A stretch of 30,986 nucleotides of DNA from a virus. The stretch is from positions 1 to 30,986 of IMG/VR virus record IMGVR_UViG_3300025282_000150; one strand, written 5' to 3'. The position numbers and the translations under genes were made by a program. Below the pieces are notes generated by a model. That model saw only the letters and a list, made by a program, of their open reading frames with translations. It did no database searches and was not told where the DNA came from. Positions 6,025-30,986 of this stretch are shown piece after piece (position 1 is the stretch's first letter; every line of letters starts with the position of its first letter).

Positions 6025-7954
6025 CTTAAAAGAGGAGAGGCACATTGTGGATGTTCAGGAGGACGATACGACCCTGACCATTACCATGGCGAAGAACCCC
6101 CCGGAACCCGAGGAGGAGGAATACGTCCCCGAGGAGGAGGCCGAGGAAGCCGAGGAGGAGGAGGAGGAGGAGCCGGCCCGGGGCGATGTCAAGGTTTTGC
6201 TACATCGTTCCGTCCAGGCGGAGGCCCGTGCCTTGGAACAGGACAACCTGGTGGAGTTGGCCTTTAGCTCCGAGCTGCCCGTTGAGCGGGATGGTTACAT
6301 GGAAGTCCTCGACCATTCCGAGGGCAGTGCAGATTTGACCCGTCTAAACAACGGGGCACCCCTTTTATTAAACCACAAAACCGACGACCAGATTGGTGTG
6401 GTGGAGTCAGCCCGAATAGACAAGGACAAGGTGGGACGTGCCGTTGTGCGCTTCTCCAAGTCCGAGAGGGCACAGGAAATTTACCGGGACGTGAAGGACG
6501 GCATTCGTCGGTTAACGAGTATTGGCTATCATGTCCTCAAGACGGTAAGGGAACGGGCGGAGGAGGGTTTGGACACTCTCCGCGTCACTCGGTTCCTGCC
6601 TCTAGAGCTATCCGTTGTGCCGGTGCCAGCGGACCCCTCGGTTGGAGTTGGCCGTGGTGTAGACGTAGAACAACCACAACAAAAGGAAAAAATTATTATG
6701 TCTGAAGTAGTCCAAGAGAGAGAGACTCCTAACGTTGAGGTTATCGCGGAGAACACCCGCAATGCCGAGTTAAAACGTTCCAAGGAGTTAACGGGCCTGG
6801 GTGCCCGTTACAACTGCATGGATGATGCGTATAACGCAATCCAGGACGGCAAGACTGCCGGGGAGTTTTCCCGGTGGATACTTGATAACCATTTGAAGAA
6901 CGAACCCACCAAGCAGGACACGGGTGAAATCGGCTTGACCGATAAGGAGGCCAAAGACTTCTCCCTGTTGCGTGCTGTCAGGTCCTATTGTGAAAAGGGC
7001 CGGGTGAGTGGTTTCGAGGGTGAAGTTAGCGAAGCGGCAGCCAAACGTTATGGGCGGCCAAATCCTGGCCTTATCATCCCAACCGATGTGTTGGCAAACT
7101 CAAACTTTGCCAAGCGCGATGTCTCCACCGCTGTTGGTGGGGGGGGCACGGTTGCAACGGACCTACTCGGCACCAACTTCATTGATGCCCTGCGGAATAA
7201 ATCCGTTGTCCAGCAAACCGGTGCCACCGTGCTTAACGGCTTGGTTGGTGACGTGGCGATTCCAAGACTTGCCACAAACGCAACCGGTTACTGGTTAACG
7301 GACGAGACCACTGCCATTACCGAGAGTCAGGCGACATTTGACCAGGTGACACTCTCACCCAAGTCGCTCGGCACTTACAGTGAGGTTAGCAAGCAGTTGT
7401 TGGCTCAGGGTTCACTGGACGTGGAGGGTTTAATCCGTGATGACATGGTTAAAGTCCTGGCAATTGCCGAGGACCTGGCAGCCATTTCAGGCACAGGAAC
7501 AGAACAACCCACGGGTATTACCGGCCAGACCAACGTTGCCGATGTTGCAGCAACGTCCTCTCCCTATACGGATGTTGTGAACATGGAGAAGGAGGTTGCG
7601 GTTGATAATGCGTTGAGCGGGTCCCTCTCCTATGTTGCAGGGGCGGGAGTCATTGCGAAGATGAAGGTAACCGAGATTGCCGCCAATACGGCACGGTTCA
7701 TCTACGAAAACGGAATGGTCAACGGTTATCCCATGCATTTGAGCAACCAGGTCCCGGCCCCATCAACTGCCACGGTTATCTTTGGCAATTGGTCGGACCT
7801 CCTGATTGGTCACTGGCAGGGTGTGGATATCACCATAGACCCCTATTCAAAGGCGGAATATCGACTGGTTAAACTGGTCGTTGCAATCTGGGCGGACATA
7901 GCCGTTAGACACGGTCAGTCGTTCTCCAAATGTGACGATTATGTGATAGCGTAG
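6017..7954 (+). CDS. prohead protease-major capsid protein fusion (HK97 type)
   Basis: A single 645-aa frame carries both functions. Residues 1-57 are extremely acidic (a run of Glu from 31 to 52). Residues 58-210 are a caudovirus prohead protease: FSSELPVER (83-91), EVLDHS (96-101), LLLNHKTDDQIG with H120, and TSIGYHV with S168 as likely catalytic residues, then LELSVVPVPAD. From about 240 the protein is an HK97-fold major capsid (ARYNCMDDAYNAI, delta-like helix, LIIPTDVL, then the P and E regions). An internal ATG at 6698 (residue 228) has AAAGGA upstream and would give a 418-aa capsid alone. The protease presumably cuts itself from the capsid during maturation. Confidence 0.95.
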   Translation: MSDLKEERHIVDVQEDDTTLTITMAKNPPEPEEEEYVPEEEAEEAEEEEEEEPARGDVKVLLHRSVQAEARALEQDNLVELAFSSELPVERDGYMEVLDHSEGSADLTRLNNGAPLLLNHKTDDQIGVVESARIDKDKVGRAVVRFSKSERAQEIYRDVKDGIRRLTSIGYHVLKTVRERAEEGLDTLRVTRFLPLELSVVPVPADPSVGVGRGVDVEQPQQKEKIIMSEVVQERETPNVEVIAENTRNAELKRSKELTGLGARYNCMDDAYNAIQDGKTAGEFSRWILDNHLKNEPTKQDTGEIGLTDKEAKDFSLLRAVRSYCEKGRVSGFEGEVSEAAAKRYGRPNPGLIIPTDVLANSNFAKRDVSTAVGGGGTVATDLLGTNFIDALRNKSVVQQTGATVLNGLVGDVAIPRLATNATGYWLTDETTAITESQATFDQVTLSPKSLGTYSEVSKQLLAQGSLDVEGLIRDDMVKVLAIAEDLAAISGTGTEQPTGITGQTNVADVAATSSPYTDVVNMEKEVAVDNALSGSLSYVAGAGVIAKMKVTEIAANTARFIYENGMVNGYPMHLSNQVPAPSTATVIFGNWSDLLIGHWQGVDITIDPYSKAEYRLVKLVVAIWADIAVRHGQSFSKCDDYVIA

Positions 7955-7976
7955 GAGTTAATTAGTTAGTGCATGG

Positions 7977-8007
7977 GGGGAGGGGGTTAGCCTCCTCTCC
8001 CCTTTTT
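7977..8007 (+). terminator. intrinsic terminator after the capsid gene
   Basis: A G-rich arm at 7977-7986 pairs with a C-rich arm at 7993-8002 to form a stem of about 10 bp including wobble pairs, with a loop of six bases, directly followed by five T (8003-8007). This is the classic rho-independent arrangement and sits 22 bases after the capsid stop. It would limit transcription into the tail genes. Confidence 0.75.
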
Positions 8008-8022
8008 ACTTTAAAACGGTGG

Positions 8023-8667
8023 ATGGTTTTAACACGGGTCCATGACGGATACATTACAAATGTGTTGGCAGATTCCAACACCCAACTCGGTGCGTTTACC
8101 GATGTCAAAACTAACTCCCTGCTGGTTGTCGGTAAGACTGCTGCCGGGGATAATGCTGATGAGGTTTATTTAAGGAGAGTTGGGGGGGTTGTAAAAATTC
8201 CGGTGCAACCCGGCGAGGTGTTAAACCTGGACCGGCCAACCGATTTAGGACAGTTTTATTTAGGGCAATGGGAGATAACAAACAAGACGGCAAACGATGG
8301 TTGCGGTTATTTAGCCATTGCGGTTGTCACAATAGACACGGCACTGGGATTAATCATGTTAGCTGATTTTGCAGCTATTTTGGCGGAGTGGCCAACCACA
8401 TTTACCTTTGGGGGTTCCACGTTTTCCGGGTACTTGGGCGAGGTCTCGGAGGAGTCCACCCTGGAGGTGGGGGGCATTGTCCCGGACTACGATGCGGAGT
8501 TGTTTTGTAAATCGGCGGACTTCTCCACCCCGCTGGATGTGGGGGACACCATAACCGTTGCCACCTCTTATGATTCCCTCCTGGTGGGCAATTCTTACCG
8601 GATACACACCCGGGGTTTGAGTGATGGAAAAATAGCCAACTACGGCCTAAAGAGTTTAAATGAGTAG
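8023..8667 (+). CDS. two-domain connector/decoration-like protein
   Basis: The start at 8023 was preferred because an upstream in-frame ATG (7969) would put coding sequence across the terminator. The N-terminal 105 residues are clearly homologous to the whole protein at 17313-17627: shared DGYIT, ADSNT, LGA, VYLR-VGG-VKIP, PG-VL, QWEI, DGCG. The C-terminal 105 residues, from the ATG at 8356 (MLADFAAIL onward), look like a separate beta-rich head-tail connector of the FII type, ending DGKIANYGLKSLNE. The position right after the capsid fits a head decoration or neck role. Whether the two halves are made as one chain or the second restarts at 8356 is not clear. Confidence 0.6.
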   Translation: MVLTRVHDGYITNVLADSNTQLGAFTDVKTNSLLVVGKTAAGDNADEVYLRRVGGVVKIPVQPGEVLNLDRPTDLGQFYLGQWEITNKTANDGCGYLAIAVVTIDTALGLIMLADFAAILAEWPTTFTFGGSTFSGYLGEVSEESTLEVGGIVPDYDAELFCKSADFSTPLDVGDTITVATSYDSLLVGNSYRIHTRGLSDGKIANYGLKSLNE

Positions 8668-22232: not shown

Positions 22233-22241
22233 TGCCGTTTA

Positions 22242-22541
22242 ATGTTTGAGATTAAAACCAAGGCAACCAGGGACTTGCCCGTTAACGTGGTTCAGGTGCA
22301 ACTGGTGGGGTCCCACGAATTTGGCATGACGTTTGAGGCAACGGGTTTTTCGGTTAAAACCTGGACGGTGGGAGAGGGTGAAGGGGCGCAAACATTAACC
22401 AAGCGCAACTCAGTTCCCATATTAAGCCAGAGGATAAATTTGGTGGGAGAAACCTGGGACAAGTGGAAGAAGTCCACCAAGTCGGACAAGGATTTTATTG
22501 GAGGGTTATGCCTTAATGAGATGGGACTTAAGAAGGGATGA
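22242..22541 (+). CDS. native paralogue of 21906-22232, function unknown
   Basis: This 99-aa protein has a strand-rich first half (VNVVQVQLVGSHEFGMTFEATGF) and a C-terminal helical part (KDFIGGLCLNEMGLKKG). It has native codon use and follows the acquired copy by nine bases. Its TGA overlaps the ATG of the first holin-like gene (ATGA), so it is coupled to lysis expression. It probably belonged to the fibre or tail region of the original phage before the module exchange. Confidence 0.55.
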   Translation: MFEIKTKATRDLPVNVVQVQLVGSHEFGMTFEATGFSVKTWTVGEGEGAQTLTKRNSVPILSQRINLVGETWDKWKKSTKSDKDFIGGLCLNEMGLKKG

Positions 22542-22723
22542 ACTGGGGGGACGTAAAAGTGGGTGGGGCTACAATGCTGGGGTGGGTTAGTAACCTCTCC
22601 AGTTTTAATGAAATTTTGACTGCAATATTAACACTCTTAAGCATTGGGTATGTTGCGGTCCGTTTAGTCAAGGAAATCAAAAAGAAACATGGCGGGAGAA
22701 AAAACAACAAAGCCGGGTTATAA
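22538..22723 (+). CDS. small membrane protein, holin-like
   Basis: This 61-aa protein has one clear transmembrane segment (about residues 24-43, EILTAILTLLSIGYVAVRLV) and a very basic C-terminus (KEIKKKHGGRKNNK). One-helix proteins with a positive tail are common as holins or antiholins in lysis cassettes. It overlaps the next holin-like gene by 35 bp in another frame and is coupled to the upstream gene by ATGA. Function is assigned from topology and context. Confidence 0.6.
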   Translation: MNWGDVKVGGATMLGWVSNLSSFNEILTAILTLLSIGYVAVRLVKEIKKKHGGRKNNKAGL

Positions 22724-22895
22724 ATCCACGGAGTTCTGGTTGGCAGCCGTTGCCGCCCTTTGTGGCATCCTGTTTGCCTCCGGGTTCATTGCACCGGACT
22801 CGTCCGGGGACAAGGTGCTTGGGTTAATTGCCGGGGTCCTGGCAAGTCTTGGTTATAGTGTCTCAAGGGGCATGGCCAAGGCCAAAAAGGAGTAA
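22689..22895 (+). CDS. holin-like protein with two membrane segments
   Basis: This 68-aa protein has hydrophobic segments at about 17-34 (FWLAAVAALCGILFASGF) and 43-57 (VLGLIAGVLASLGYS), separated by a short polar turn (APDSSGDK), with a basic C-terminus (RGMAKAKKE). That is a class II holin layout. Holins permeabilise the inner membrane at a set time. The pair with 22538 may be holin and antiholin, but which is which cannot be told. Confidence 0.7.
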   Translation: MAGEKTTKPGYKSTEFWLAAVAALCGILFASGFIAPDSSGDKVLGLIAGVLASLGYSVSRGMAKAKKE

Positions 22896-22914
22896 CCCCG
22901 CCCCGGGGGGCACC

Positions 22915-23175
22915 ATGGCGGAGGCACTCATTGCGGTAGTGGCTGCCCTTGTAACGTATTGGCTGAAGCGTAAACTAAACAAGGAGCAGGACAGGGGGGC
23001 ATTGTTGGAGGACGCACTGCATGACATCGACAAGGCTATTTCAGACGGGGACATGGATTTTGTTAACTCTCACCTTGAGCGCACTTTGCGCCGGTTGTCA
23101 CACCGTAACCGTCATAGACGGGGACAAAGTGGTGGAGAGAATGGAGAAGGGGAAACCCTTCACTCCAGGGATTAA
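22915..23175 (+). CDS. inner-membrane spanin (Rz-like)
   Basis: This 86-aa protein is read from the ATG at 22915. An N-terminal transmembrane segment (ALIAVVAALVTYWL) is followed by a charged soluble part (KRKLNKEQDRGALLEDALHDIDKAI) suited to a coiled coil. It is shorter than lambda Rz (153 aa). The decisive point is that a lipoprotein gene starts within it in another frame, the hallmark of Rz/Rz1 pairs. Together these fuse inner and outer membranes at the end of lysis, which implies a Gram-negative host. Confidence 0.7.
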   Translation: MAEALIAVVAALVTYWLKRKLNKEQDRGALLEDALHDIDKAISDGDMDFVNSHLERTLRRLSHRNRHRRGQSGGENGEGETLHSRD

Positions 23176-23248
23176 CGGTTACTTTGTTCCAGATGCCCGG
23201 ATGCGTGAAATCCTCCAGCAATTGGAGGCCAAGACCCGGGAGGAATGA
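23021..23248 (+). CDS. outer-membrane spanin lipoprotein (Rz1-like), nested start
   Basis: This 75-aa protein begins with a signal sequence (WILLTLTLSALCAGC) carrying a lipobox, L-C-A-G-C, so Cys26 should be acylated. The mature part is about 50 aa and ends in a charged helix (MREILQQLEAKTREE). The first 155 bp overlap the inner spanin gene in a different frame. It overlaps the next gene by four bases. The partner topology and overlap make the spanin call firmer than sequence alone. Confidence 0.72.
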   Translation: MTSTRLFQTGTWILLTLTLSALCAGCHTVTVIDGDKVVERMEKGKPFTPGINGYFVPDARMREILQQLEAKTREE

Positions 23249-23562
23249 ACCCACCAAGACCCAAACGGCTCCGGGTTTTAAACCTCTCCTGGAAAGTTAG
23301 GTTTTGCAACAAAACAATCCCGGACACCCGGGATGCCTGGGGATGGTGTGTGCCGGCGGACCAGACCATTTACATTTGTGAGGACCAGCAGTCCGATTCC
23401 ATGGCGGACACGTTCCTACACGAGGTTTTACACTCTATCATTTTCGCCCTGGGGGTGGACCCCAAGGAGGAGGAGAACATTGTTCACCGATTAGCCACCG
23501 GTCTTTGCATGGTTTGGAAGCAAAACCCCTCTGCCTTTAGGTGGTGGCAATCGTTGTTATGA
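23245..23562 (+). CDS. HExxH zinc metallopeptidase-like protein
   Basis: This 105-aa protein carries HEVLH at residues 59-63, the classic zinc-binding HExxH motif, in the context TFLHEVLHSIIFALG, with acidic residues at 75-77 that could supply the third ligand. Two or three Cys residues lie before it (C21, C35, C45). It sits in the lysis cassette between spanins and a phosphoesterase. Since no standard endolysin is visible, a role in lysis is possible, but SprT-like or ImmA-like regulatory peptidases have the same motif. It overlaps the next gene by four bases (ATGA). Confidence 0.6.
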   Translation: MNPPRPKRLRVLNLSWKVRFCNKTIPDTRDAWGWCVPADQTIYICEDQQSDSMADTFLHEVLHSIIFALGVDPKEEENIVHRLATGLCMVWKQNPSAFRWWQSLL

Positions 23563-24302
23563 AACGTTTTCTAGCGTTCGGGGATACCCACGGGGACATG
23601 GTGGATAAGAACGCCCTGGAGGCCCTTTTACGCTTCAAGAAACGGTACAAGCCACACCTAACCGTCCACCTTGGGGACCTGTTTGATTTCCGGGCTTTAA
23701 GGCAGGGGATAAGGCAAACGGAATCGGAGGCCCACGAGGACTTGAGAGGGGACACGCTCAAGGGGTTTGAAGTGTTGGAGAGGACCCGGCCAAACGTCCT
23801 GCTTTTGGGCAACCACGACCACCGCATTTACCGGGTTGCCAAGGAGCATTCCAGCGGACTCGTCCGGGAGGCTGCCGAGAACGGCATTGCCCGGTTGGAG
23901 AAGCATTGCAAAAAACTCCGCTGCCAGGTTATCCCCTACCATTACCATCAAGGTGTCTATTCTGCCGGCTCCCTCCTGTTTTTGCATGGCTATACGGCCA
24001 ACCTCCGGGCAGTTGCGGAACACGCCCAGCACTACGGGACCGGCCCGGACTCCTCGGTGGTGATGGGGCACCTCCACCGGGTGGAACAATCCACCGGCAA
24101 ACGCCACGGGAGGGCACATGGCTTCTCGGCAGGATGCTTGGCCAGGTTTGAGTGCATGACCTATGCCGCCCATCGTCTCGCTACCAGTATGTGGGAGTTG
24201 GGTTGGTCGTTTGGGGTGTACGATGAGAAGCACCACCAAGTTTGGTTGGCTACCAGGACAGGAGACAAGTGGGTTTTGCCTACGGGGGTGGAATCGTTTT
24301 GA
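23559..24302 (+). CDS. calcineurin-like metallophosphoesterase
   Basis: This 247-aa protein has all the metal-binding blocks of the family: GDTHGD (8-13), GDLFD (39-43), GNHDH (84-88), HGY (143-145) and GHLH (170-173). Members hydrolyse phosphomonoesters, phosphodiesters or nucleotides with two metal ions. The ATG at 23559 was chosen over the GTG at 23541 because the protein then starts directly with the MKRFLAFGDTHGD strand and overlaps the previous stop as ATGA. The target is unknown; phage homologues act on nucleic acids or signalling nucleotides. Confidence 0.9.
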   Translation: MKRFLAFGDTHGDMVDKNALEALLRFKKRYKPHLTVHLGDLFDFRALRQGIRQTESEAHEDLRGDTLKGFEVLERTRPNVLLLGNHDHRIYRVAKEHSSGLVREAAENGIARLEKHCKKLRCQVIPYHYHQGVYSAGSLLFLHGYTANLRAVAEHAQHYGTGPDSSVVMGHLHRVEQSTGKRHGRAHGFSAGCLARFECMTYAAHRLATSMWELGWSFGVYDEKHHQVWLATRTGDKWVLPTGVESF

Positions 24303-24517
24303 GCGAGTGGCAAAAAGTATTGGCCAAAGGGTTTGCCTTAAAGGGGAGACCGGAGGGATACGAGACCACCCGGGAGATTGCGGAACAAATGGGAATCTCC
24401 AAGCAATTGGCCTGGACTCGGTTGTCCAAGCTATTTGAGGACGGCAAGGTGGACCGTTTAAAAGTGATAATAGGCGGGAAACATTGTTGTGCCTGGAAGA
24501 TTAAAAAAAAGGGCTAG
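24299..24517 (+). CDS. winged-helix DNA-binding protein
   Basis: A TTG start at 24299 overlaps the previous stop (TTGA) and yields 72 aa. The core TTREIAEQMGISKQLAWTRLSKLFEDGKVDRLKV is a clear helix-turn-helix followed by a wing (IIGGKHCCAWKIKKK). It is probably a small transcription factor. An upstream TTG at 24242 would add a stretch that shadows the phosphoesterase. Its targets are unknown. Confidence 0.65.
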   Translation: MSEWQKVLAKGFALKGRPEGYETTREIAEQMGISKQLAWTRLSKLFEDGKVDRLKVIIGGKHCCAWKIKKKG

Positions 24518-24725
24518 GGTCCACATTTGTTTGGGGGTGATTACCCCGGTTAAGCAGGGGCGAAAGTGGGTTCTTAAAAGCCTCTGCGCCGGCATGGTCA
24601 ACCCAATAGGTCCTCGCCTGCACCGGTCAACCCCCTGGCCTTTGGACACGGACACATTTAGCACCCAAGGGGAGGCTCAACGGGCGGCGGACCAGGCCAA
24701 CAATTACCTCGGGGCTAGGACTTGA
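24489..24725 (+). CDS. small basic protein, function unknown
   Basis: Starting at GTG 24489, this 78-aa product has a basic N-terminus (GRLKKRARVHIC) and a C-terminal helix (STQGEAQRAADQANNYLG). It overlaps the previous gene by 29 bp in another frame. Its stop TGA is part of the -35 box of the prepilin-like gene promoter. Codon use looks native, but no motif supports a function. Confidence 0.45.
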   Translation: MPGRLKKRARVHICLGVITPVKQGRKWVLKSLCAGMVNPIGPRLHRSTPWPLDTDTFSTQGEAQRAADQANNYLGART

Positions 24726-24749
24726 AACAGGGGCGGGACATGAAACAAT
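24722..24749 (+). promoter_or_regulatory. promoter of the TTGAAA-N16-xACxxT family, before the prepilin-like gene
   Basis: TTGAAA is at 24722-24727 and AACAAT at 24744-24749, with a 16-bp spacer. The ATG at 24756 follows by six bases, matching the sites at 9909 and 16198 exactly. The transcript should be leaderless. Confidence 0.66.
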
Positions 24750-24755
24750 TAAATC

Positions 24756-25706
24756 ATGTCAAGGGGGATGGGCTTTACCTTGGTGGAGTTGTTGGTGGTT
24801 ATCGCAATAATTGCCCTCCTGGTGGCGTTGTTACTGCCCTCCCTGGCCTCGGCAAAAAGAACAGGGTGGCAGGCTGCGTGCCTAAACAATCACCGGCAAC
24901 TGAACCTTGCACTCCATGAGTTTGCCGGCGACCACCAAGACCGGTTCCCCTATGCGTCCGCCTGGGAGCGCGAACCCTCGGCACGCTGGGCTTGGGTTAG
25001 CGGGAGCATGAGTGGCGGGGGGGCCTGGGCACAAACGGACCGACCACTCTATTGGGGTCCCTTGAAGCCTTATGCCGGGATGAACGTTTTCAAGTGCCCG
25101 GGCGACAAGTCCACCGTTACCCGGAGAACAAGGGGAGAGGGAGAAACAAATTGGGTTGACCATACAGAGCAACGTCCCCGGTCTTATTCCATGAATATAT
25201 TTGTGGGAGGCTGGAGTGGTTGGCCTTTCATGTATGACAACCAGATAAAAACCCACCACACTTACGAGGAGGTTAAGAACCCGTCCCAACTGTTCACCCT
25301 AATAGAGATGCCGGCGGAGAGCATTAACTCTGGCAACTTCCGGGTGGTGCCACCCCAGGACGGCAAAAGTGCCTTCTCCATGGATTGGCCCGGGGTGTAT
25401 CACAACAACGGCAGTGTGGTCTCATTTGTGGACAGTCACACGGAGTTTAAGAGGTGGTTGGAGGAATCGACAAAAGTGATTCCTGGCAGCGCAGGCAACC
25501 CCACCACCACGGGCACCCTGATTGTGTCGGAGGACAACCGGGACTTGGCTTGGCTACAAGCCCGGGCAATTGTCCCGGACCCCAACGACCACAAATGGTA
25601 CTCCTGGGTCTCCGGGATTGGGCGTTACAACCGGGCATGGAATGCGCGGGAGGTGGACGGCAAATTGTATGACTCCTGGGGATGGTTCTGGAACGATTCT
25701 TGGTGA
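24756..25706 (+). CDS. type IV prepilin/pseudopilin-like protein (class common in Verrucomicrobia)
   Basis: This 316-aa protein begins MSRGMG then FTLVELLVVIAIIALLVALL, a textbook class III prepilin signal: cleavage after Gly6, Phe as first mature residue, Glu at +5, then a long hydrophobic helix. It continues with CLNNHRQLNLALHEFAGDHQDRFP and ends with a C-terminal block around NNGSVVSFVDSHTEFKRW, similar to the H-x-DG region of the prepilin-like families abundant in Planctomycetes, Verrucomicrobia and Lentisphaerae. In cells such proteins are processed by prepilin peptidase and enter type IV pilus or type II secretion-like fibres. Here the gene is in a phage, with native codon use and a phage-type promoter. 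The role is unknown: receptor masking, pilus interference or a virion part. Confidence 0.88.
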   Translation: MSRGMGFTLVELLVVIAIIALLVALLLPSLASAKRTGWQAACLNNHRQLNLALHEFAGDHQDRFPYASAWEREPSARWAWVSGSMSGGGAWAQTDRPLYWGPLKPYAGMNVFKCPGDKSTVTRRTRGEGETNWVDHTEQRPRSYSMNIFVGGWSGWPFMYDNQIKTHHTYEEVKNPSQLFTLIEMPAESINSGNFRVVPPQDGKSAFSMDWPGVYHNNGSVVSFVDSHTEFKRWLEESTKVIPGSAGNPTTTGTLIVSEDNRDLAWLQARAIVPDPNDHKWYSWVSGIGRYNRAWNAREVDGKLYDSWGWFWNDSW

Positions 25707-25753
25707 TTTAATTATCAGTTTGGAACCGTTAAACGTGTCTGGGGGTTTTTAAA

Positions 25754-26071
25754 ATGCTTGCATGGGGAGGGAGAACCGAGACAATGCTTGCCGGCATGAG
25801 CACAAATGCAAGGTTGGACTCCTCAAACGCAGACCCAGATTCCTGGTTTAAGTGGGCAATTTCGCAAAACGAGGACCTCTCTGTGGATGTTAGCCTATGG
25901 CCCATCAAGGCAGACCCCACGGCAAAATCAATCTTTCCAAACAAAACCATCGGGGAGGCAGCCGACCTAATAAAAGAGTGGTACACGACTTTGAAACTAA
26001 CCCCCTCCGAACACTCTCGGGTAACCCTTAACAGGATAACTCGGGATAACTTCTCCAAAAAACACCTATAA
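25754..26071 (+). CDS. hypothetical protein next to the putative att site
   Basis: This 105-aa protein is not recognised. It has a helix near the C-terminus (TIGEAADLIKEWYTTLKLTPSEHSRVTLNRITRDNF) and several Trp residues. The 3' end of the gene contains one 18-bp direct repeat (26034-26051) that recurs on the other side of the tRNA-like core. Position beside the att-like region would suit an integration-related protein, but no tyrosine or serine recombinase motifs are seen. Confidence 0.5.
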   Translation: MLAWGGRTETMLAGMSTNARLDSSNADPDSWFKWAISQNEDLSVDVSLWPIKADPTAKSIFPNKTIGEAADLIKEWYTTLKLTPSEHSRVTLNRITRDNFSKKHL

Positions 26072-26083
26072 TAACCATTAAAG

Positions 26084-26130
26084 TGGTGGAAGCGGGGGGA
26101 GTCGAACCCCCTGCAGGAGTGTCTGTTTCC
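26084..26130 (-). other. 3' end of a tRNA/tmRNA-like sequence, probable attP core
   Basis: On the minus strand this reads a T-arm (GGGGG stem, TTCGACT loop, CCCCC), then CGCTTCC, A and CCA, i.e. the acceptor 3' half with encoded CCA. No matching 5' acceptor half (GGAAGCG) or D-arm occurs at the right distance, so it is only the 3' end. Integrating phages often carry exactly this part so that the host gene is rebuilt on insertion. The host target could be a tRNA (Ser-like acceptor) or tmRNA; I cannot decide which. Confidence 0.7.
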
Positions 26131-26139
26131 CTTTAGTTG

Positions 26140-26204
26140 TTCCCATATTCCCATATTCATTAACAATTAAGTGTCCCATTGTTTCCCATTGTGTAATTAA
26201 GTGT
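26140..26204 (+). repeat. nested short tandem repeats in the att-like region
   Basis: TTCCCATA is repeated in tandem at 26140-26147 and 26148-26155. TCCCATTGT occurs at 26174-26182 and 26184-26192. These latter copies are bracketed by AATTAAGTGT at 26165-26174 and 26195-26204. Ten- and thirty-base spacing puts copies on one face of the helix, as for multiple protein binding sites. Confidence 0.7.
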
Positions 26205-26267
26205 TGCCTTATGGGGATAACTCGGGATAACTCCCGCCCGGGTTGTTTAACAGTTTCCAACTGATAA

Positions 26268-26402
26268 TTCTGCCGTCACAGCGTAACAATTCAATGTTTG
26301 CGGGGGTATGCTCAAACTTCTGCCGTCACAACCTACCCCGCCCATGTTACGGATGGAATTTAATTTCAGCCAATGTTTGTAAGGCTTGTGACGTTGTGAC
26401 GG
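26268..26402 (+). repeat. CGTCACA repeat cluster in the control region
   Basis: TTCTGCCGTCACA occurs at 26268-26280 and 26318-26330 (50 bp apart). The inverse form TGTGACG occurs at 26387-26393 and 26395-26401. CAATGTTTG is found at 26292-26300 and 26371-26379 between them. The stretch 26072-26595 has no gene I can support; apart from these repeats it holds a run of ten G at 26409-26418 and an AT-rich part near 26480-26515. Confidence 0.65.
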
Positions 26403-26525
26403 ATTCTCGGGGGGGGGGTGCCGGTGAAACGGGCCAGGGCCAAGGGGAGTTACAAACCCAGGGTGGCAAAAAGGTTCTGGCAAATAAGAACAAATAAAAA
26501 CTTTTAAAAAATGTTCAGAAAAAGG

Positions 26526-26554
26526 TTGACGGTGGAATCCGCCGGGTTTATTGC
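26526..26554 (+). promoter_or_regulatory. possible promoter with overlapping palindromic operator
   Basis: TTGACG (26526-26531) could be a -35, with TATTGC at 26549-26554 as a weak -10, spacer 17. GGTGGAATCCGCC at 26531-26543 lies in the spacer; it is a near-perfect palindrome that recurs twice at 27118-27165. A repressor bound there would block this promoter, which would drive 26596 and following genes. Confidence 0.45.
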
Positions 26555-26595
26555 TCTCTCCGGTTATGGAACTCATACAATCAGGAGGGTGTTAT

Positions 26596-26730
26596 ATGGA
26601 TGTCCTCAAGCGTGTGGCGGAGGACAATGGGCTAACCCGGACAGAACTGGTGGAGTTTTTGATTGGTGAGTTGAGAAAAATGGAACCCGAGGAGGTGCAA
26701 AAGTGGAAGAAAAAAAACAGGAAGAATTAA
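26596..26730 (+). CDS. small regulator-like protein (ribbon-helix-helix remnant-like)
   Basis: This 44-aa product is preceded by a strong Shine-Dalgarno (GGAGGG at 26584-26589, six bases from the ATG). The sequence LKRVAEDNGLTRTELVEFLIGEL resembles the two helices of ribbon-helix-helix proteins, but the N-terminal strand is missing, so DNA binding is uncertain. The C-terminus is very basic (KWKKKNRKN). It is the first gene of the run that leads into replication, and the following gene starts inside it. Confidence 0.6.
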   Translation: MDVLKRVAEDNGLTRTELVEFLIGELRKMEPEEVQKWKKKNRKN

Positions 26731-26984
26731 CGGAGGCGCAATTATCCGCCCATTACATTGTCACCGACTGTGTTGCCATGCGGTTAAACAAGACGGTGAC
26801 ACTCAAGCAGGCAGTGGGACTTGCCATTGTCTCCGTGGTTGTTGCCCCGGTGGTCTTTTCTCTGTTTAATCTGTCCGGGTTGGAGGAGGAGAATTTGACC
26901 TTGAAGGAGGAGGTCCAAGTCCAGATGGAAATGAACATTGCACTAACGGAGGTCCTCTTGAGGGCAGGAATGGTGGGCCAATAA
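26703..26984 (+). CDS. small membrane protein with coiled coil
   Basis: This 93-aa protein, with GTG start at 26703, has a membrane segment at about residues 37-60 (AVGLAIVSVVVAPVVFSLF) followed by an acidic coiled coil (LEEENLTLKEEVQVQMEMN). A cytosolic N-terminus of some 35 residues is likely. Early-region membrane proteins of temperate phages often act in superinfection exclusion, but there is no direct sign of that here. It overlaps the preceding small gene by 28 bp. Confidence 0.55.
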   Translation: MEEKKQEELTEAQLSAHYIVTDCVAMRLNKTVTLKQAVGLAIVSVVVAPVVFSLFNLSGLEEENLTLKEEVQVQMEMNIALTEVLLRAGMVGQ

Positions 26985-26988
26985 TCAA

Positions 26989-27180
26989 ATGAAAATCGGC
27001 TTGAAAATAAACAAGAAGTTAAAGGAGCAGTTGCAGGCAATTGCAGAGGAGGAGGACCGTTCCATGAGTTCGGTGGCACGGATTGCAATAATGAAGGGTC
27101 TCCCTTTTTTTGGCAAGGGTGGAATCCACCAGCCCCCAAAAAAAACAACCAGGGTGGAATCCACCTTGACTGAGCGATGA
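26989..27180 (+). CDS. ribbon-helix-helix transcriptional regulator (CopG/Arc type)
   Basis: This 63-aa protein starts MKIGLKINKKLKEQLQAIAEEEDRSMSSVARIAIMKGL, a typical RHH: a short strand (KIGLKI), helix A (KKLKEQLQAIAEEE), turn, and helix B (SMSSVARIAIMKGL). Such dimers bind palindromic operators. Two copies of the palindrome GGTGGAATCCACC lie within its own 3' coding part and a near copy overlaps an upstream promoter, so autoregulation is a reasonable inference. Its end overlaps the next start (ATGA). Confidence 0.8.
   Translation: MKIGLKINKKLKEQLQAIAEEEDRSMSSVARIAIMKGLPFFGKGGIHQPPKKTTRVESTLTER
27118..27165 (+). promoter_or_regulatory. two palindromic operators GGTGGAATCCACC
   Basis: Perfect 13-bp palindromes lie at 27118-27130 and 27153-27165, 35 bp apart between starts. 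They precede the excisionase-like gene at 27177. TTGACT (27166-27171) follows the second copy directly, in mirror image of the arrangement at 26526-26543. Confidence 0.6.
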
Positions 27181-27350
27181 CCTACAAGGAGGCAGCACGT
27201 TACATGGGCGTGAAGGTTAGCCGGCTACGGAGTTGGGTCCGGGCCAGACGCATCCCGTTTATTCGTTACGGTTATAGGACTCACCGATTCAGGAGGACAG
27301 ATTTGGACAAATTTATGGACGAGAACACTGTTAAGGCCAAACCATTATGA
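27177..27350 (+). CDS. excisionase/MerR-type helix-turn-helix protein
   Basis: This 57-aa protein reads MTYKEAARYMGVKVSRLRSWVRARRIPFIRYGYRTHRFRRTDLDKFM, a standard HTH_17/excisionase pattern: EAARYMGV then SRLRSWVRARRIPF, followed by a wing with a basic strand and a final helix. Excisionases bend DNA and bind arm regions of att sites; the att-like region lies about 1 kb upstream. A role as a plain transcription factor is equally possible. It overlaps both neighbours by four bases (ATGA). Confidence 0.75.
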   Translation: MTYKEAARYMGVKVSRLRSWVRARRIPFIRYGYRTHRFRRTDLDKFMDENTVKAKPL

Positions 27351-27547
27351 GACAAGCAACAATAACAAGGGTGGCGTTAGTTGCCGCCCAAAGACCAAGC
27401 AAGGTTTCCAACGTTTTCCAATTGGAAAACAACCGGAAAAGAGTGGAACGTATGGGCGATTCCCTGGTGTGCAAGGTGTGGTTTGTCATGTTCGCCATGT
27501 TCGCCATGGGCACCATCGTTGGCCTCCTCCTGTTTGGTTGGCGATGA
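27347..27547 (+). CDS. small membrane protein, function unknown
   Basis: This 66-aa protein has a basic, helical N-terminal half (LENNRKRVERMGDS) and a C-terminal membrane segment (VWFVMFAMFAMGTIVGLLLFGW) ending at the stop: a tail-anchored layout. It is translationally coupled to the HTH gene by ATGA. It is not recognised as a family. Confidence 0.55.
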   Translation: MRQATITRVALVAAQRPSKVSNVFQLENNRKRVERMGDSLVCKVWFVMFAMFAMGTIVGLLLFGWR

Positions 27548-27785
27548 GTTTACCGGTGCCACAACACCGGCCTCCCCCCCCATCACAACCCCCTGGGTTT
27601 TTCATAGTTGCCCGGGGAAAGGGGTGGGGAGGTTCAATTTGGGACTGTCGTTGGTTGGAAATGAGTTCCTGCATTTATAGCCCAACGTCCCCGGTGTGTT
27701 GCCGGGTTGGTCCCGGCGGCGAATGGGTGGTTGCGGTCAACTGCCTTTGCGCCGCCAAATTTATTCCGAAAGGAGACAGAACAAA
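27548..27785 (+). promoter_or_regulatory. structured leader before the recombination/replication genes
   Basis: This 238-base stretch has no supported gene. It holds a hairpin around CCGGTG/CACCGG near 27553-27570, a weak terminator-like AACCC-CCT-GGGTT followed by T (27587-27602), a strong hairpin GCCGGG/CCCGGC (27701-27706 with 27712-27717), and a longer GGCGGCG/CGCCGCC pair (27715-27721 with 27750-27756). These lie just ahead of the Shine-Dalgarno (AAAGGAG) of 27786. A possible promoter is TTGGTT (27651-27656) with TTATAG (27675-27680). Confidence 0.35.
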
Positions 27786-28670
27786 ATGGAAAATAATGCA
27801 CTAACAGTAAGAGAGAACCCTGCCGAATTGATGCGGCAGAGTAGTGACGTTGCCGGCGTTTGCCGGGAAATAGTCACCAAGACGGCACACCCCATAAACG
27901 GAGAGAACTACGTTTGTGTTGAGGGTTGGCAAAGCATTGCAACCGCCCACGGGTGTGTTGCAGGAGCAGAGGAACCCAAGGTGGTGGACGGAGGCGTCCA
28001 GGCCATGGGTTATGTAAAGCGAATGAGTGACGGCATGGTGTTATCCACCGGTTACGGGTTCGTTGGTGACGACGAGAGAACATGGGCAAAGCGGCATGAG
28101 TACGCAAGGCGAGCGATGGCACAAACCCGGGGCATATCCCGGGCCTGCCGTTCTGCATTTAGCCACGTTGTGGTTATGATGGACACCGGATTAATGACCA
28201 CCCCGGCGGAGGAGATGCCCGGGAATGTGGGCGAGGGGAAAAGCCAAGCGGCAACCACCAAGACAACCAGCAAACAACCACCCAAAAAGGAGGCTCCCAA
28301 GACGGTGGACGTGGCGGAAGTTAAGGAGGTGAGCAAAGGAGAACCAACAAACAACCAGCAAACAGTCACCCCCATTGGGGACTTGCCGGTTAACGGGGAG
28401 TGGTCTGTTTATGTGTTGGGATTTGGGAAGCACAAGGGCAAGACCCTCGGGGACCTGGCAACCGAGGACCCCCAATACCTGGAGTGGCTGCCCAAGCGGA
28501 CTATAAAGCCCAGGAAGGACGGCACACCCTGGGACTCGGACATTGAGTTAAACCGGATGCTGGAGGGTTACCAGACCGAGAGAAACACCGAGATGGCCCA
28601 ACTGGTCAAGGACGTGGCGGAGGGAGTTAAAACAGAGGCACCCCAGGGGGACGATGATGTCCCGTTTTAA
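27786..28670 (+). CDS. single-strand annealing/recombination protein candidate with SSB-like tip
   Basis: This 294-aa protein is read from the ATG with AAAGGAG upstream. The N-terminal domain (GENYVCVEGWQSIATAHG near 39-56, YARRAMAQTRGISRACRSAF near 106-125) resembles phage proteins in recombination operons that are predicted annealing or ssDNA-binding proteins. A linker rich in Lys, Thr and Pro follows. Residues about 200-231 (GFGKHKGKTLGDLATEDPQYLEWL) match the small FGKHKGK domain also found at the C-terminus of some exonucleases. The last residues DDDVPF mimic the acidic tip of bacterial SSB, which recruits repair proteins. It heads the operon with an exonuclease, nuclease and resolvase, which supports a recombination role. 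Confidence 0.62.
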   Translation: MENNALTVRENPAELMRQSSDVAGVCREIVTKTAHPINGENYVCVEGWQSIATAHGCVAGAEEPKVVDGGVQAMGYVKRMSDGMVLSTGYGFVGDDERTWAKRHEYARRAMAQTRGISRACRSAFSHVVVMMDTGLMTTPAEEMPGNVGEGKSQAATTKTTSKQPPKKEAPKTVDVAEVKEVSKGEPTNNQQTVTPIGDLPVNGEWSVYVLGFGKHKGKTLGDLATEDPQYLEWLPKRTIKPRKDGTPWDSDIELNRMLEGYQTERNTEMAQLVKDVAEGVKTEAPQGDDDVPF

Positions 28671-28681
28671 GGAGGTTCGTT

Positions 28682-29320
28682 ATGATATTCTTTGACATTG
28701 AAACTGGACCCCTGCCGCCCCAGGAGTTGGAGGCGAGAAAACCACCCTTTGAAGCGAGGAAGGGGTTAAAAGACCCGGCCAAAATTGAGGCAGACCTAAC
28801 CGCAAAGGAGGCAACGTGGAGGGATAAGACCACCCTAAATGCGTTCACCTCACAAGTCTGGTCCATTGCCTACAAAAAGGGCGCGGACGGGGAGGTTATA
28901 GTGGACCATTTTGGCCCGGACCCAACCCCGGAAAACGAGGCCGGCATGATAGAGGGTTTCTTTGGCTACATGGACTCCCACTCTATTTTGTGTGGGTTCA
29001 ATATAATTGCTTTTGATGTCCCTTTTATTATCCGCCGAGCCTATGCCCTGGGGGTGTATGTCCCCAGTAGCTTGAGGCAACGCAAGTATTGGTATGACAA
29101 GTTTGTTGACCTCATGGAGTTGTGGACTCTTGGCACCTACCGGGTGGAGACCCAGAACCGCATTAGCCTAAACAACCTGGCCAAGCATTTGGGCTTGGAA
29201 GGTAAGACCGGGACGGGCGACAAGTTTTGGTCCCTGTTCCGTTCGGACCAAAAGGCCGCGCTGGACTATGCCAAGCGAGACGTGGAGTTGTTGGCTGAAA
29301 TCTATGACAAGATTGGGTGA
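28682..29320 (+). CDS. 3'-5' exonuclease, DnaQ-like (DEDDy)
   Basis: This 212-aa protein has the three exonuclease blocks: FFDIETGP at residues 3-10 (Exo I, D5 and E7), CGFNIIAFDVPFIIRR near 103-118 (Exo II), and YAKRDVELLAEIYDKI near 196-211 (Exo III, Tyr-x3-Asp). It is a predicted polymerase-B-like 3'-5' exonuclease without a polymerase. A strong Shine-Dalgarno (AAGGAGG, 28669-28675) is placed six bases upstream. It may supply single-stranded ends for the annealing protein or proofread host replication. Confidence 0.9.
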   Translation: MIFFDIETGPLPPQELEARKPPFEARKGLKDPAKIEADLTAKEATWRDKTTLNAFTSQVWSIAYKKGADGEVIVDHFGPDPTPENEAGMIEGFFGYMDSHSILCGFNIIAFDVPFIIRRAYALGVYVPSSLRQRKYWYDKFVDLMELWTLGTYRVETQNRISLNNLAKHLGLEGKTGTGDKFWSLFRSDQKAALDYAKRDVELLAEIYDKIG

Positions 29321-29736
29321 TGTCCGGCCAACCCGCATTTGATTTGGACCTGGCCTTTGGGCAAGCCGGGGAGGAGTGGCTGCGTCACCTCCTCGACACT
29401 CAACCGTTTTGTAAGGGTTGCGGTGAGAGCAACGGGTTGCTGGTGGAGGTTAAGACCGAGCGAGACCTCTGGCACTCCACCGGCAACCTTTTCTTTGAGT
29501 TTGAATTTAACGGCAATCCTTCCGGGTTCATGGGCACCCAGGCGGATTGGTGGATACATTTGTTGACCCTGGACGGCACCCGGCACGGGGCACTCCTTAT
29601 AACCGTGGGGAAGTTGCGGGAGAGGTTAAGGGAGTTGGTAAAGGAGGGGGTGGCCCGGGTGACCGTGGGGGGAGACCACAACGCAAGCCGGGGGGTGTTA
29701 CTGCCCTTGGGCCAGGTGGGGAGGTTGTTTGTATGA
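29320..29736 (+). CDS. PD-(D/E)XK-type nuclease (probable)
   Basis: This 138-aa protein has AFDLDLAFGQAGEEWLRHLL at the start, then GLLVEVKTERDLWHSTGNLFFEFEFNGNPSGFMGTQADWW. The E-x-K of LVEVKTER, an upstream acidic residue and the later FEFE and TQAD blocks fit a known small phage nuclease family. A CKGC pair (about 32-35) sits just before, as if replacing the usual strand, and the usual catalytic Asp before EVK is not obvious. It begins within the exonuclease stop codon (TGATG). Confidence 0.68.
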   Translation: MSGQPAFDLDLAFGQAGEEWLRHLLDTQPFCKGCGESNGLLVEVKTERDLWHSTGNLFFEFEFNGNPSGFMGTQADWWIHLLTLDGTRHGALLITVGKLRERLRELVKEGVARVTVGGDHNASRGVLLPLGQVGRLFV

Positions 29737-30239
29737 TTAAGTCTTTAGACCAGTTGCCACCCCTGGAGAAGTACATACCCGGCAGGGTTATTATTGGTAT
29801 TGACCCGGGAGTCTCGGGTGGGGTTGCGGTTCGTTATGTTGGCCGGGAGGTCCTGACCTTCCCGATGCCTCCCGAGGTCGATGCTGTTAGGGATTTGTTT
29901 CAGAAGATAACCCACCCGGACTGCCTTAATGTTGCCTACCTGGAGGACGTGCCGCCCTTTGCCGGCAAACTCTTTCCCGGGTCCCGTATGTTTCGCCTGG
30001 GAGAGTCTTGTGGGGTTATCCGGGGTGTCTTGTCCTCTCTGTATATTAACACCGTCCTGATGCGCCCCCAGGCTTGGCAATGGGCATTAGGGTTAAAGAG
30101 GGAGAAGGGGTTGGAGCAGGCGGCATGGAAAAGGGTGCTCAAGGAGGCAGCCCAGGTGCTTTACCCGGACATTAAAATAACACTTAAGACGGCAGATGCC
30201 GTGCTGTTAATGCACTATGGAATTACCCAGCAACTATGA
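29733..30239 (+). CDS. RuvC-like Holliday junction resolvase
   Basis: This 168-aa RNase H-fold protein has IIGIDPGVSGGVAV (residues 20-33; D24 catalytic), AYLEDVPPF (E71), and LKTADAVLLMHYG (D155) as the C-terminal acid. These match the RuvC layout. It would resolve branched recombination or replication intermediates before packaging. The ATG at 29733 overlaps the previous stop (ATGA) and was preferred to the long upstream extension, which only shadows the nuclease gene. Confidence 0.88.
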   Translation: MIKSLDQLPPLEKYIPGRVIIGIDPGVSGGVAVRYVGREVLTFPMPPEVDAVRDLFQKITHPDCLNVAYLEDVPPFAGKLFPGSRMFRLGESCGVIRGVLSSLYINTVLMRPQAWQWALGLKREKGLEQAAWKRVLKEAAQVLYPDIKITLKTADAVLLMHYGITQQL

Positions 30240-30565
30240 AAGTGGGAATGGTCAACTTGGGTGCTAATAACCACAAGGCAAGGCTCAAGCGAATTGCTAC
30301 CATCCTTAAAGCAATTTCACGCCATTATGGCTATGAGGTGGAGGATATTATAGGGACGCGCCGATGGGCGGACCTGGTTTGGCCTCGTCATGCTGCCATG
30401 AGTTTGGCGCGTGAGGAGGGGTGCCTGTTGCGGGAGATTGCAGAGGTGTTTAACCGCAACCACCAGACGGTTATTAATGCGTGCAGGAGTGTCCGTAACT
30501 TGACGGAAACGGAGCCACAATTGGCCAGGGAATATGAGAGGTTAAAGGAGCAGTTTAAGGGATGA
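30236..30565 (+). CDS. free-standing DnaA domain IV-like DNA-binding protein
   Basis: This 109-aa protein is nearly all DnaA C-terminal domain: AISRHYGYEVEDIIGTRRWADLVWPRHAAMSLAREEG (about 26-62), then LREIAEVFNRNHQTVINACRSVRNL (about 65-89), equivalent to the DnaA signature around DHTTVLHA. The ATPase and N-terminal domains are absent. It could bind DnaA boxes in the host or phage origin, redirecting or blocking host initiation. It is coupled to the resolvase and to the initiator gene on both sides by ATGA overlaps. Confidence 0.88.
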   Translation: MKVGMVNLGANNHKARLKRIATILKAISRHYGYEVEDIIGTRRWADLVWPRHAAMSLAREEGCLLREIAEVFNRNHQTVINACRSVRNLTETEPQLAREYERLKEQFKG

Positions 30566-30986
30566 CCTATGTTGACATTGTGAATGCCTTTTGGCGTTAC
30601 CACAAGCGCAAGCCGGTGAGTGGGGGGGCAATGCAACTGTTTTTCTATCTTTGTAACGTTAACAACTATTACCGGTGGAGTGATTGGTTCCATTTGTCCC
30701 GGGATACCATGTCCTCGGGGTTAGGGCTGTCCCCTTCCACCATTAAGCGTTGCACAAGAGAGTTGCAGTCAAGCGGACTACTAAACGTGCAAAAACAGAG
30801 GGGCAGATTACCCAACAAATACAGTATCAAAAGTGCTTTGCGGTTCCCTGGTGACCACCCAGGTGACCACCCAAGGAGTTTGCGGTTCCCTCCTGACCCC
30901 CCAAGCCGTTTGCGGTTCCCTGGTGACCCCCTATTAAAGATAAGTAGTAGAACAGATAAAAGAGGAGAAGGTGATACCCCTCCCCT
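30562..30986 (+). CDS. O-like replication initiator with internal iterons (3' end outside window)
   Basis: The frame is open to the end of the window (at least 141 codons). The N-terminal region (AMQLFFYLCNVNNYYRWSDWFHLSRDTMSSGLGLSPSTIKRCTRELQ at about 24-70) is a winged helix typical of phage replication initiators of the O or DnaD type. Three direct repeats in the DNA follow and are read as LRFPGD, LRFPPD and LRFPGD. An AT-rich stretch comes next. In lambda the origin lies inside gene O with the same order: DNA-binding domain, iterons, AT-rich region. The remainder of the gene is not visible. Confidence 0.72.
   Translation, partial: MTYVDIVNAFWRYHKRKPVSGGAMQLFFYLCNVNNYYRWSDWFHLSRDTMSSGLGLSPSTIKRCTRELQSSGLLNVQKQRGRLPNKYSIKSALRFPGDHPGDHPRSLRFPPDPPSRLRFPGDPLLKISSRTDKRGEGDTPP
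30837..30932 (+). repeat. iteron cluster, probable replication origin
   Basis: TTTGCGGTTCCCT starts at 30837, 30879 and 30909, each followed by a variable pair and TGACC(A/C)CCC. Start-to-start distances are 42 and 30 bp, about four and three helical turns. Between the first two, GGTGACCACCCA is repeated in tandem (30850-30861 and 30862-30873). The AT-rich stretch 30931-30965 follows and could be the unwinding element. Confidence 0.68.

Follow-up and report, generated by a model that had tools for sequence, protein, structure and literature searches.

The window, by which we mean the whole stretch of DNA analyzed here, is the IMG/VR virus contig IMGVR_UViG_3300025282_000150 (30,986 bp). Its first part encodes terminase, portal, head and tape-measure proteins, followed by a metallophosphatase and a pilin-like gene. 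Next come an att region and then the early genes, with products resembling an exonuclease, a RuvC resolvase, the DnaA C-terminal part (DnaA-C-like) and replication-initiation proteins. All of the named genes, from terminase through replication initiation, are transcribed rightwards. The att region and its immediate surroundings contain the following features.

25754..26071, plus strand: small open reading frame with no assigned function, overlapping the left arm pair; a related frame is found in the relative L012 (6511-6768)
26034..26051, plus strand: left outer arm pair, an exact 18-bp repeat holding two GGATAACT sites 10 bp apart
26084..26111, minus strand: attP core, the last 28 nt of a tmRNA gene (T-stem, T-loop, acceptor 3' strand, discriminator A and CCA)
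26140..26204, plus strand: inner repeats of 8-11 bp, namely TTCCCATATTC at 26140 and 26148, TCCCATTGT at 26174 and 26184, and AATTAAGTGT at 26165 and 26195
26215..26232, plus strand: right outer arm pair, the second copy of the exact 18-bp repeat, again two GGATAACT sites 10 bp apart
26270..26402, both strands: operator-like CCGTCACA sites at 26273 (plus), 26323 (plus) and 26395 (minus), between attP and the integrase start
26418..26507, plus strand: integrase stub, consisting of the first 12 codons (26418-26453) and the last 17 codons and stop (26454-26507)
27177..27350, plus strand: excisionase-like protein of the HTH_17/MerR type, 57 aa, matching HTH_17, Tn916-Xis and phrog_66

Two related contigs served for comparison: 3300025066_000112 (G002; 29,517 bp; loci L003, L012, L015, L030, L034 and L165) and 3300037584_003644 (G005; 31,357 bp, with a 373-bp terminal overlap containing 2 mismatches), with the locus L019.

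Read on the minus strand from 26111 to 26084, the core consists of GGGGG, TTCGACT, CCCCC, CGCTTCC, A and CCA, and forms a perfect T-arm. The preliminary description had assigned a T-arm, acceptor strand and CCA lacking a 5' half to 26084-26130. This assignment stands for 26084-26111 (28 nt), while the remaining 26112-26130 bear no likeness to tmRNA. The window therefore holds the 3' end of a tRNA or tmRNA gene without the remaining gene. The 27-nt counterparts of the core in L012 and G005 match at least 120 bacterial genome stretches exactly. Among the 120 matches listed, ARAGORN placed 99 in tmRNA genes (97 plain, 2 of the starred type) and none in a tRNA gene, and left 21 uncalled. The motif GGACG, which is the Rfam tmRNA consensus at the position just upstream of this 27-nt end, immediately precedes it in 116 of the 120 matches listed. 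It is absent upstream of the core in the window, L012 and G005, so that homology to tmRNA ends at the T-stem, as expected of an attP fragment. Judged from these sequences, the integration target is of the tmRNA type and not a tRNA, which narrows the earlier "tRNA/tmRNA 3' end". We did not count the Rfam tmRNA score of the window (18.6 bits) as proof, since places of tRNA size reach comparable values.

All three phages carry U70, which we take to be part of the G3-U70 alanine identity pair of tmRNA. The window alone of the three has T at position 69, a base carried by none of the 120 matches listed. The preliminary description had proposed a search for a host gene with this 3' end. The L012 and G005 versions of the core match bacterial tDNA 3' ends exactly, whereas the T69 version of the window was found in no genome searched. 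A one-base mismatch between phage core and Mycobacterium tuberculosis tmRNA is reported not to have prevented lysogeny (PMC3203893), and by analogy T69 need not be fatal.

Paired arm-type repeats lie on either side of the core. The two exact 18-bp repeats noted earlier hold up well against chance: when the 251-bp region was simulated 1,000 times under an order-1 Markov model, the longest exact direct repeat was 14 bp, and none of the simulations reached 18. The site GGATAACT occurs four times in the 30,986 bp, always at att (26034, 26044, 26215 and 26225). The left arm pair falls inside the 3' end of the small open reading frame at 25754-26071 and has counterparts in L012 and G005. The short tandem repeats described near the core are likewise present, each occurring twice, and we regard those of 26140-26204 as further candidate sites for integrase, excisionase or a host factor. 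One inner element, CCATTGTTT(C/A)CCATTGTG, is common to the window and G005. The CCGTCACA sites, two direct and one inverted, recur in L012 but not in L019 of G005; they probably serve in the putative control of int.

G005 shows the same gene order (metallophosphatase, two small genes, att, integrase), and its tmRNA end lies between exact 20-bp repeats of TGTTCACTTATGTTCACTAA, 172 bp apart, which again form two pairs with 10-bp spacing. The arm positions are those of L012 and the window but the letters are different. Its integrase (415 aa) is 58% identical to that of L012, and this identity is unevenly spread, falling to 31% in residues 1-55 and rising to 62% beyond them. The split parallels the divergence of the arm sites, as one would expect were residues 1-55 the part that reads them. 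A structure model of the integrase, poor overall (mean pLDDT 55.6), places three strands and a helix over residues 12-60, a topology known from arm-binding domains.

In L012 the same attP is followed by an intact tyrosine integrase gene (7116-8369, 417 aa), whose product matches the phrog_1 integrase family (E=3e-22) and, weakly and under the curated cut-off, Pfam Phage_integrase (E=3e-5). At the corresponding place the window has a 29-codon open reading frame reading VPVKRARAKGSY + KPRVAKRFWQIRTNKNF, the L012 counterparts being VPVKRVRTKGNY and KPKVAKRFWNIQPNKKF. In the blastn alignment of the window with L012 the flanks end at L012 position 7152 and pick up again at 8311. Missing relative to L012 are bases 7152-8315, that is 1,164 bp or 388 codons, and the two remnants are joined in frame. 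Identities to the right of 26454 were taken from blastn, as the MAFFT alignment opened no deletion gap there and its values were discarded. The preliminary description, which saw no integrase in the window, was right as far as an intact gene is concerned but overlooked this in-frame stub. It had also proposed looking for the integrase in the rest of the genome, an idea that the relatives speak against. G002 and G005 each have a single integrase, placed directly beside attP, where the window has its stub, and the G002 segment matching the roughly 0.9 kb missing from the right end of the window encodes none. Overall, a phrog_1 search found an integrase in 3 of 8 records (G002, G005 and G006) and none in the window and four other records searched, several of which are fragments. 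An intact tyrosine integrase gene, as part of a self-sufficient attP and int module, is thus present in L012 and G005 and not in the window. By sequence comparison, the integrase gene beside attP appears to have been lost by in-frame deletion and not to lie in the unseen part of the genome.

The excisionase-like gene announced downstream of attP was confirmed at 27177-27350 by matches to HTH_17 (E=4e-12), Tn916-Xis (E=3e-5) and phrog_66 (E=6e-10), and a similar open reading frame is found in L012 (9475-9645). The window phage thus seems to have kept a putative excisionase-like gene though its integrase was lost.

We are highly confident that this is an attP with a tmRNA core, that it belongs to a tailed phage of the temperate type, probably with cohesive ends, and that the adjacent integrase gene has been deleted, so that integration and excision would take place only with an integrase supplied in trans. 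The tmRNA-type core, the arm repeats, the layout common to the three phages, the homology of the integrase and the deletion in this assembly can be read from the sequences; binding at arms and core, strand exchange and the loss of lysogeny are inferred, as follows. The N-terminal domain of the integrase would occupy the pairs of approximately 10-bp arm sites on both sides and its catalytic domain the core, with strand exchange within the T-arm segment while the protein bridges arms and core. Where the integrase is intact, as in the relatives, recombination at the core would place the phage within the tmRNA gene of its host, the 3' end of which would be restored by the phage copy. In the window phage, an illegitimate deletion would have taken out 388 integrase codons and spared the region upstream with the start codon, as well as 12 codons at the beginning of the gene and 17 at its end. 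With its integrase cut to a 29-codon stub, the phage is probably unable to integrate by itself and, failing an integrase in trans, would neither integrate nor excise. The site is a real attP, ordinary in kind; what makes it informative is the integrase deletion.

One alternative accepts the att site as real and attributes the deletion to an assembly error or to a minority variant in a population that is mostly intact. The junction is covered by one assembly only, and a contig 100% identical to the window (L002, stretch L024) ends before it; in addition, the stub is still in frame, so the deletion may be very recent. Nonetheless, the junction overlap is about 1 nt, beside an imperfect GAGTTA repeat, which is far too little for a repeat-driven collapse by the assembler, and we consider this explanation unlikely.

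We give about the same small chance to the view that the attP is still in use, with integrase provided by a co-resident relative. Core, arms and excisionase-like gene have all been retained despite the loss of the integrase, and the att region (26060-26410) is identical to L012 at 332 of 351 nt (94.6%), a conservation comparison resting on the single pair of window and L012. Such similarity may merely reflect recency, however, and neither a lysogen nor a helper was found: integrase alignment revealed no integrated copy of the family in 387 genomes (E<=1e-30) and TerL none in 288 (E<=1e-100), both weak negatives, as neither search included a known positive genome. It is unlikely that the window represents a natural integrase-less lineage that keeps attP and the excisionase-like gene and, as a cheater, uses the integrase of related phages at the host tmRNA.

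Much less probable is that a functional RNA derived from tRNA or tmRNA, such as a permuted tmRNA, is made from the locus. The window does give a weak match to a permuted tmRNA model (21.1 bits against a cut-off of 47), but ARAGORN found no complete tRNA or tmRNA in the window, an Rfam scan returned nothing at gathering score, and the same fragment lies beside the integrase in two relatives (L012 and G005). A full tRNA or tmRNA at the locus would have spoken against the attP reading of the preliminary description, and none of the 7-mers on the minus strand of 25400-26900 could pair with the acceptor strand. We also rejected a permuted two-piece tmRNA gene, which would need a 5' acceptor strand and a coding piece downstream of the CCA, as no pairing strand was found in 25400-26900 and the model score was 21.1 bits against 47.

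Least plausible of all is a prophage end (attL or attR), in which one flank of the contig would be host DNA. The pilin-like gene (24756-25706), absent from L012 at that place, could pass for such DNA, but phage sequence homologous to L012 flanks the site left and right (aligned blocks from 22240 to 30847), and the core has an arm pair on either side. The attP of a free phage genome, as originally favored, is also what the relative with the same site indicates. The G002 genome is apparently complete, with the same 11 nt, AGGGACGGGTC, at both contig ends (L003 1-11 and L012 14643-14653). These probably represent filled-in cohesive ends and hence the cos site of the phage family, and several other related contigs have their first base close to this position. 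Base 1 of the window aligns to base 52 of L003, so the window starts 51 bp inside the G002 end; on the right, about 0.9 kb separates it from the other G002 end.

With the locus read as an attP that lost its integrase, the closest systems in the reports cited here are the cluster K1 mycobacteriophages and TM4. In K1 phages (CrimD, Adephagia, Angelica and Anaya), the attP core is described as a 24-bp tmRNA 3' end, located 5' of a tyrosine integrase gene and accompanied by two pairs of approximately 11-bp arm sites and, to the right, a MerR-like Xis gene; the arm consensus varies between phages with the same core (PMC3203893). The window family resembles them in its tmRNA 3' core, attP 5' of int, paired arms, MerR-type Xis-like gene and variable arm spelling. 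It differs in belonging to another phage lineage, probably with another host, and in the deletion of the integrase in the window. Moreover, one arm-site pair is inverted in CrimD whereas both are direct in the window (PMC3203893). TM4 is described as a deletion derivative of a temperate parent with an inferred loss of about 3.5 kb, including int and attP, and a predicted Xis that was kept (PMC3203893). Like TM4, the window phage is without integrase and retains an Xis-like gene, but its attP is intact and the deletion does not reach beyond the integrase open reading frame, which makes the loss less severe than the one inferred for TM4. In a Burkholderia phage, a laboratory deletion of int is reported to have blocked spontaneous release until the gene was resupplied, which fits the expectation for the window phage (PMC13026187). 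The Islander work reports that enrichment as a target is higher for tmRNA than for every single tRNA isoacceptor type (PMC4383910). As in the tDNA-targeting elements described there, the attP bears a target-restoring tDNA fragment and the integrases of the family are tyrosine integrases (PMC4383910), but unlike for those elements, our searches for the window phage found neither an integrated copy nor a host gene. A literature search for natural phages with attP and without int recognized none at the level of titles and abstracts, and we do not claim that none is in print.

The window offers a nucleotide-level view of an uncultured temperate-type phage that lost integration, probably no longer achieved unaided, by one in-frame deletion while keeping attP. 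The three related attP sites, two of them with intact integrase, share the tmRNA target and the core layout with two arm-site spellings and constitute natural material on the co-evolution of integrase and arm sites. For annotators, an attP with no visible integrase is a reason to look for a stub.

For the terminase (374-2251), the best of the 795 TerL matches in cultured-phage records come from Roseobacter phages of the CRP series, which have small genomes (29-33 kb), at 47-50% identity. No match in cultured-phage records was obtained for the L012 integrase or for one early protein of the window. A scan of genome contigs for the exact 28-nt core pattern gave 0 matches, but zeros from such scans are not firm, as one viral-contig scan gave 0 though L012 holds the pattern exactly. 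In the phylum of Verrucomicrobia bacterium OFTM167 (G010), the window core with T69 was found in 0 of 387 genomes; as a control, a looser core pattern was found in 8 of 194 genomes of this phylum, always with C69. In OFTM167 itself, the tmRNA and a second copy of its 3' end (L174, G010:C579:13467-13490) are on separate contigs. The second copy is probably a fragment that an integrated element displaced; the OFTM167 loci examined showed no integrase resembling that of the phage family.

The pilin-like gene lies between the late genes and attP, and its product has an N-terminal methylation motif and a weak DUF1559 match, which we take as a hint of Planctomycetota or Verrucomicrobiota relatives. 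The pilin protein was found (E<=1e-20) in 0 of 194 genomes of the G010 phylum and in 1 of 199 of the G015 phylum. The gene is probably a recent acquisition because it is missing from the corresponding place in both L012 and G005. Finally, a 25-nt inverted repeat (88% complementary) has its left arm at 25710-25734, the downstream end of the pilin insert, and its right arm at 26245-26269. The right arm is conserved in L012 immediately outside attP, and the repeat may be a trace of how the pilin gene was gained.
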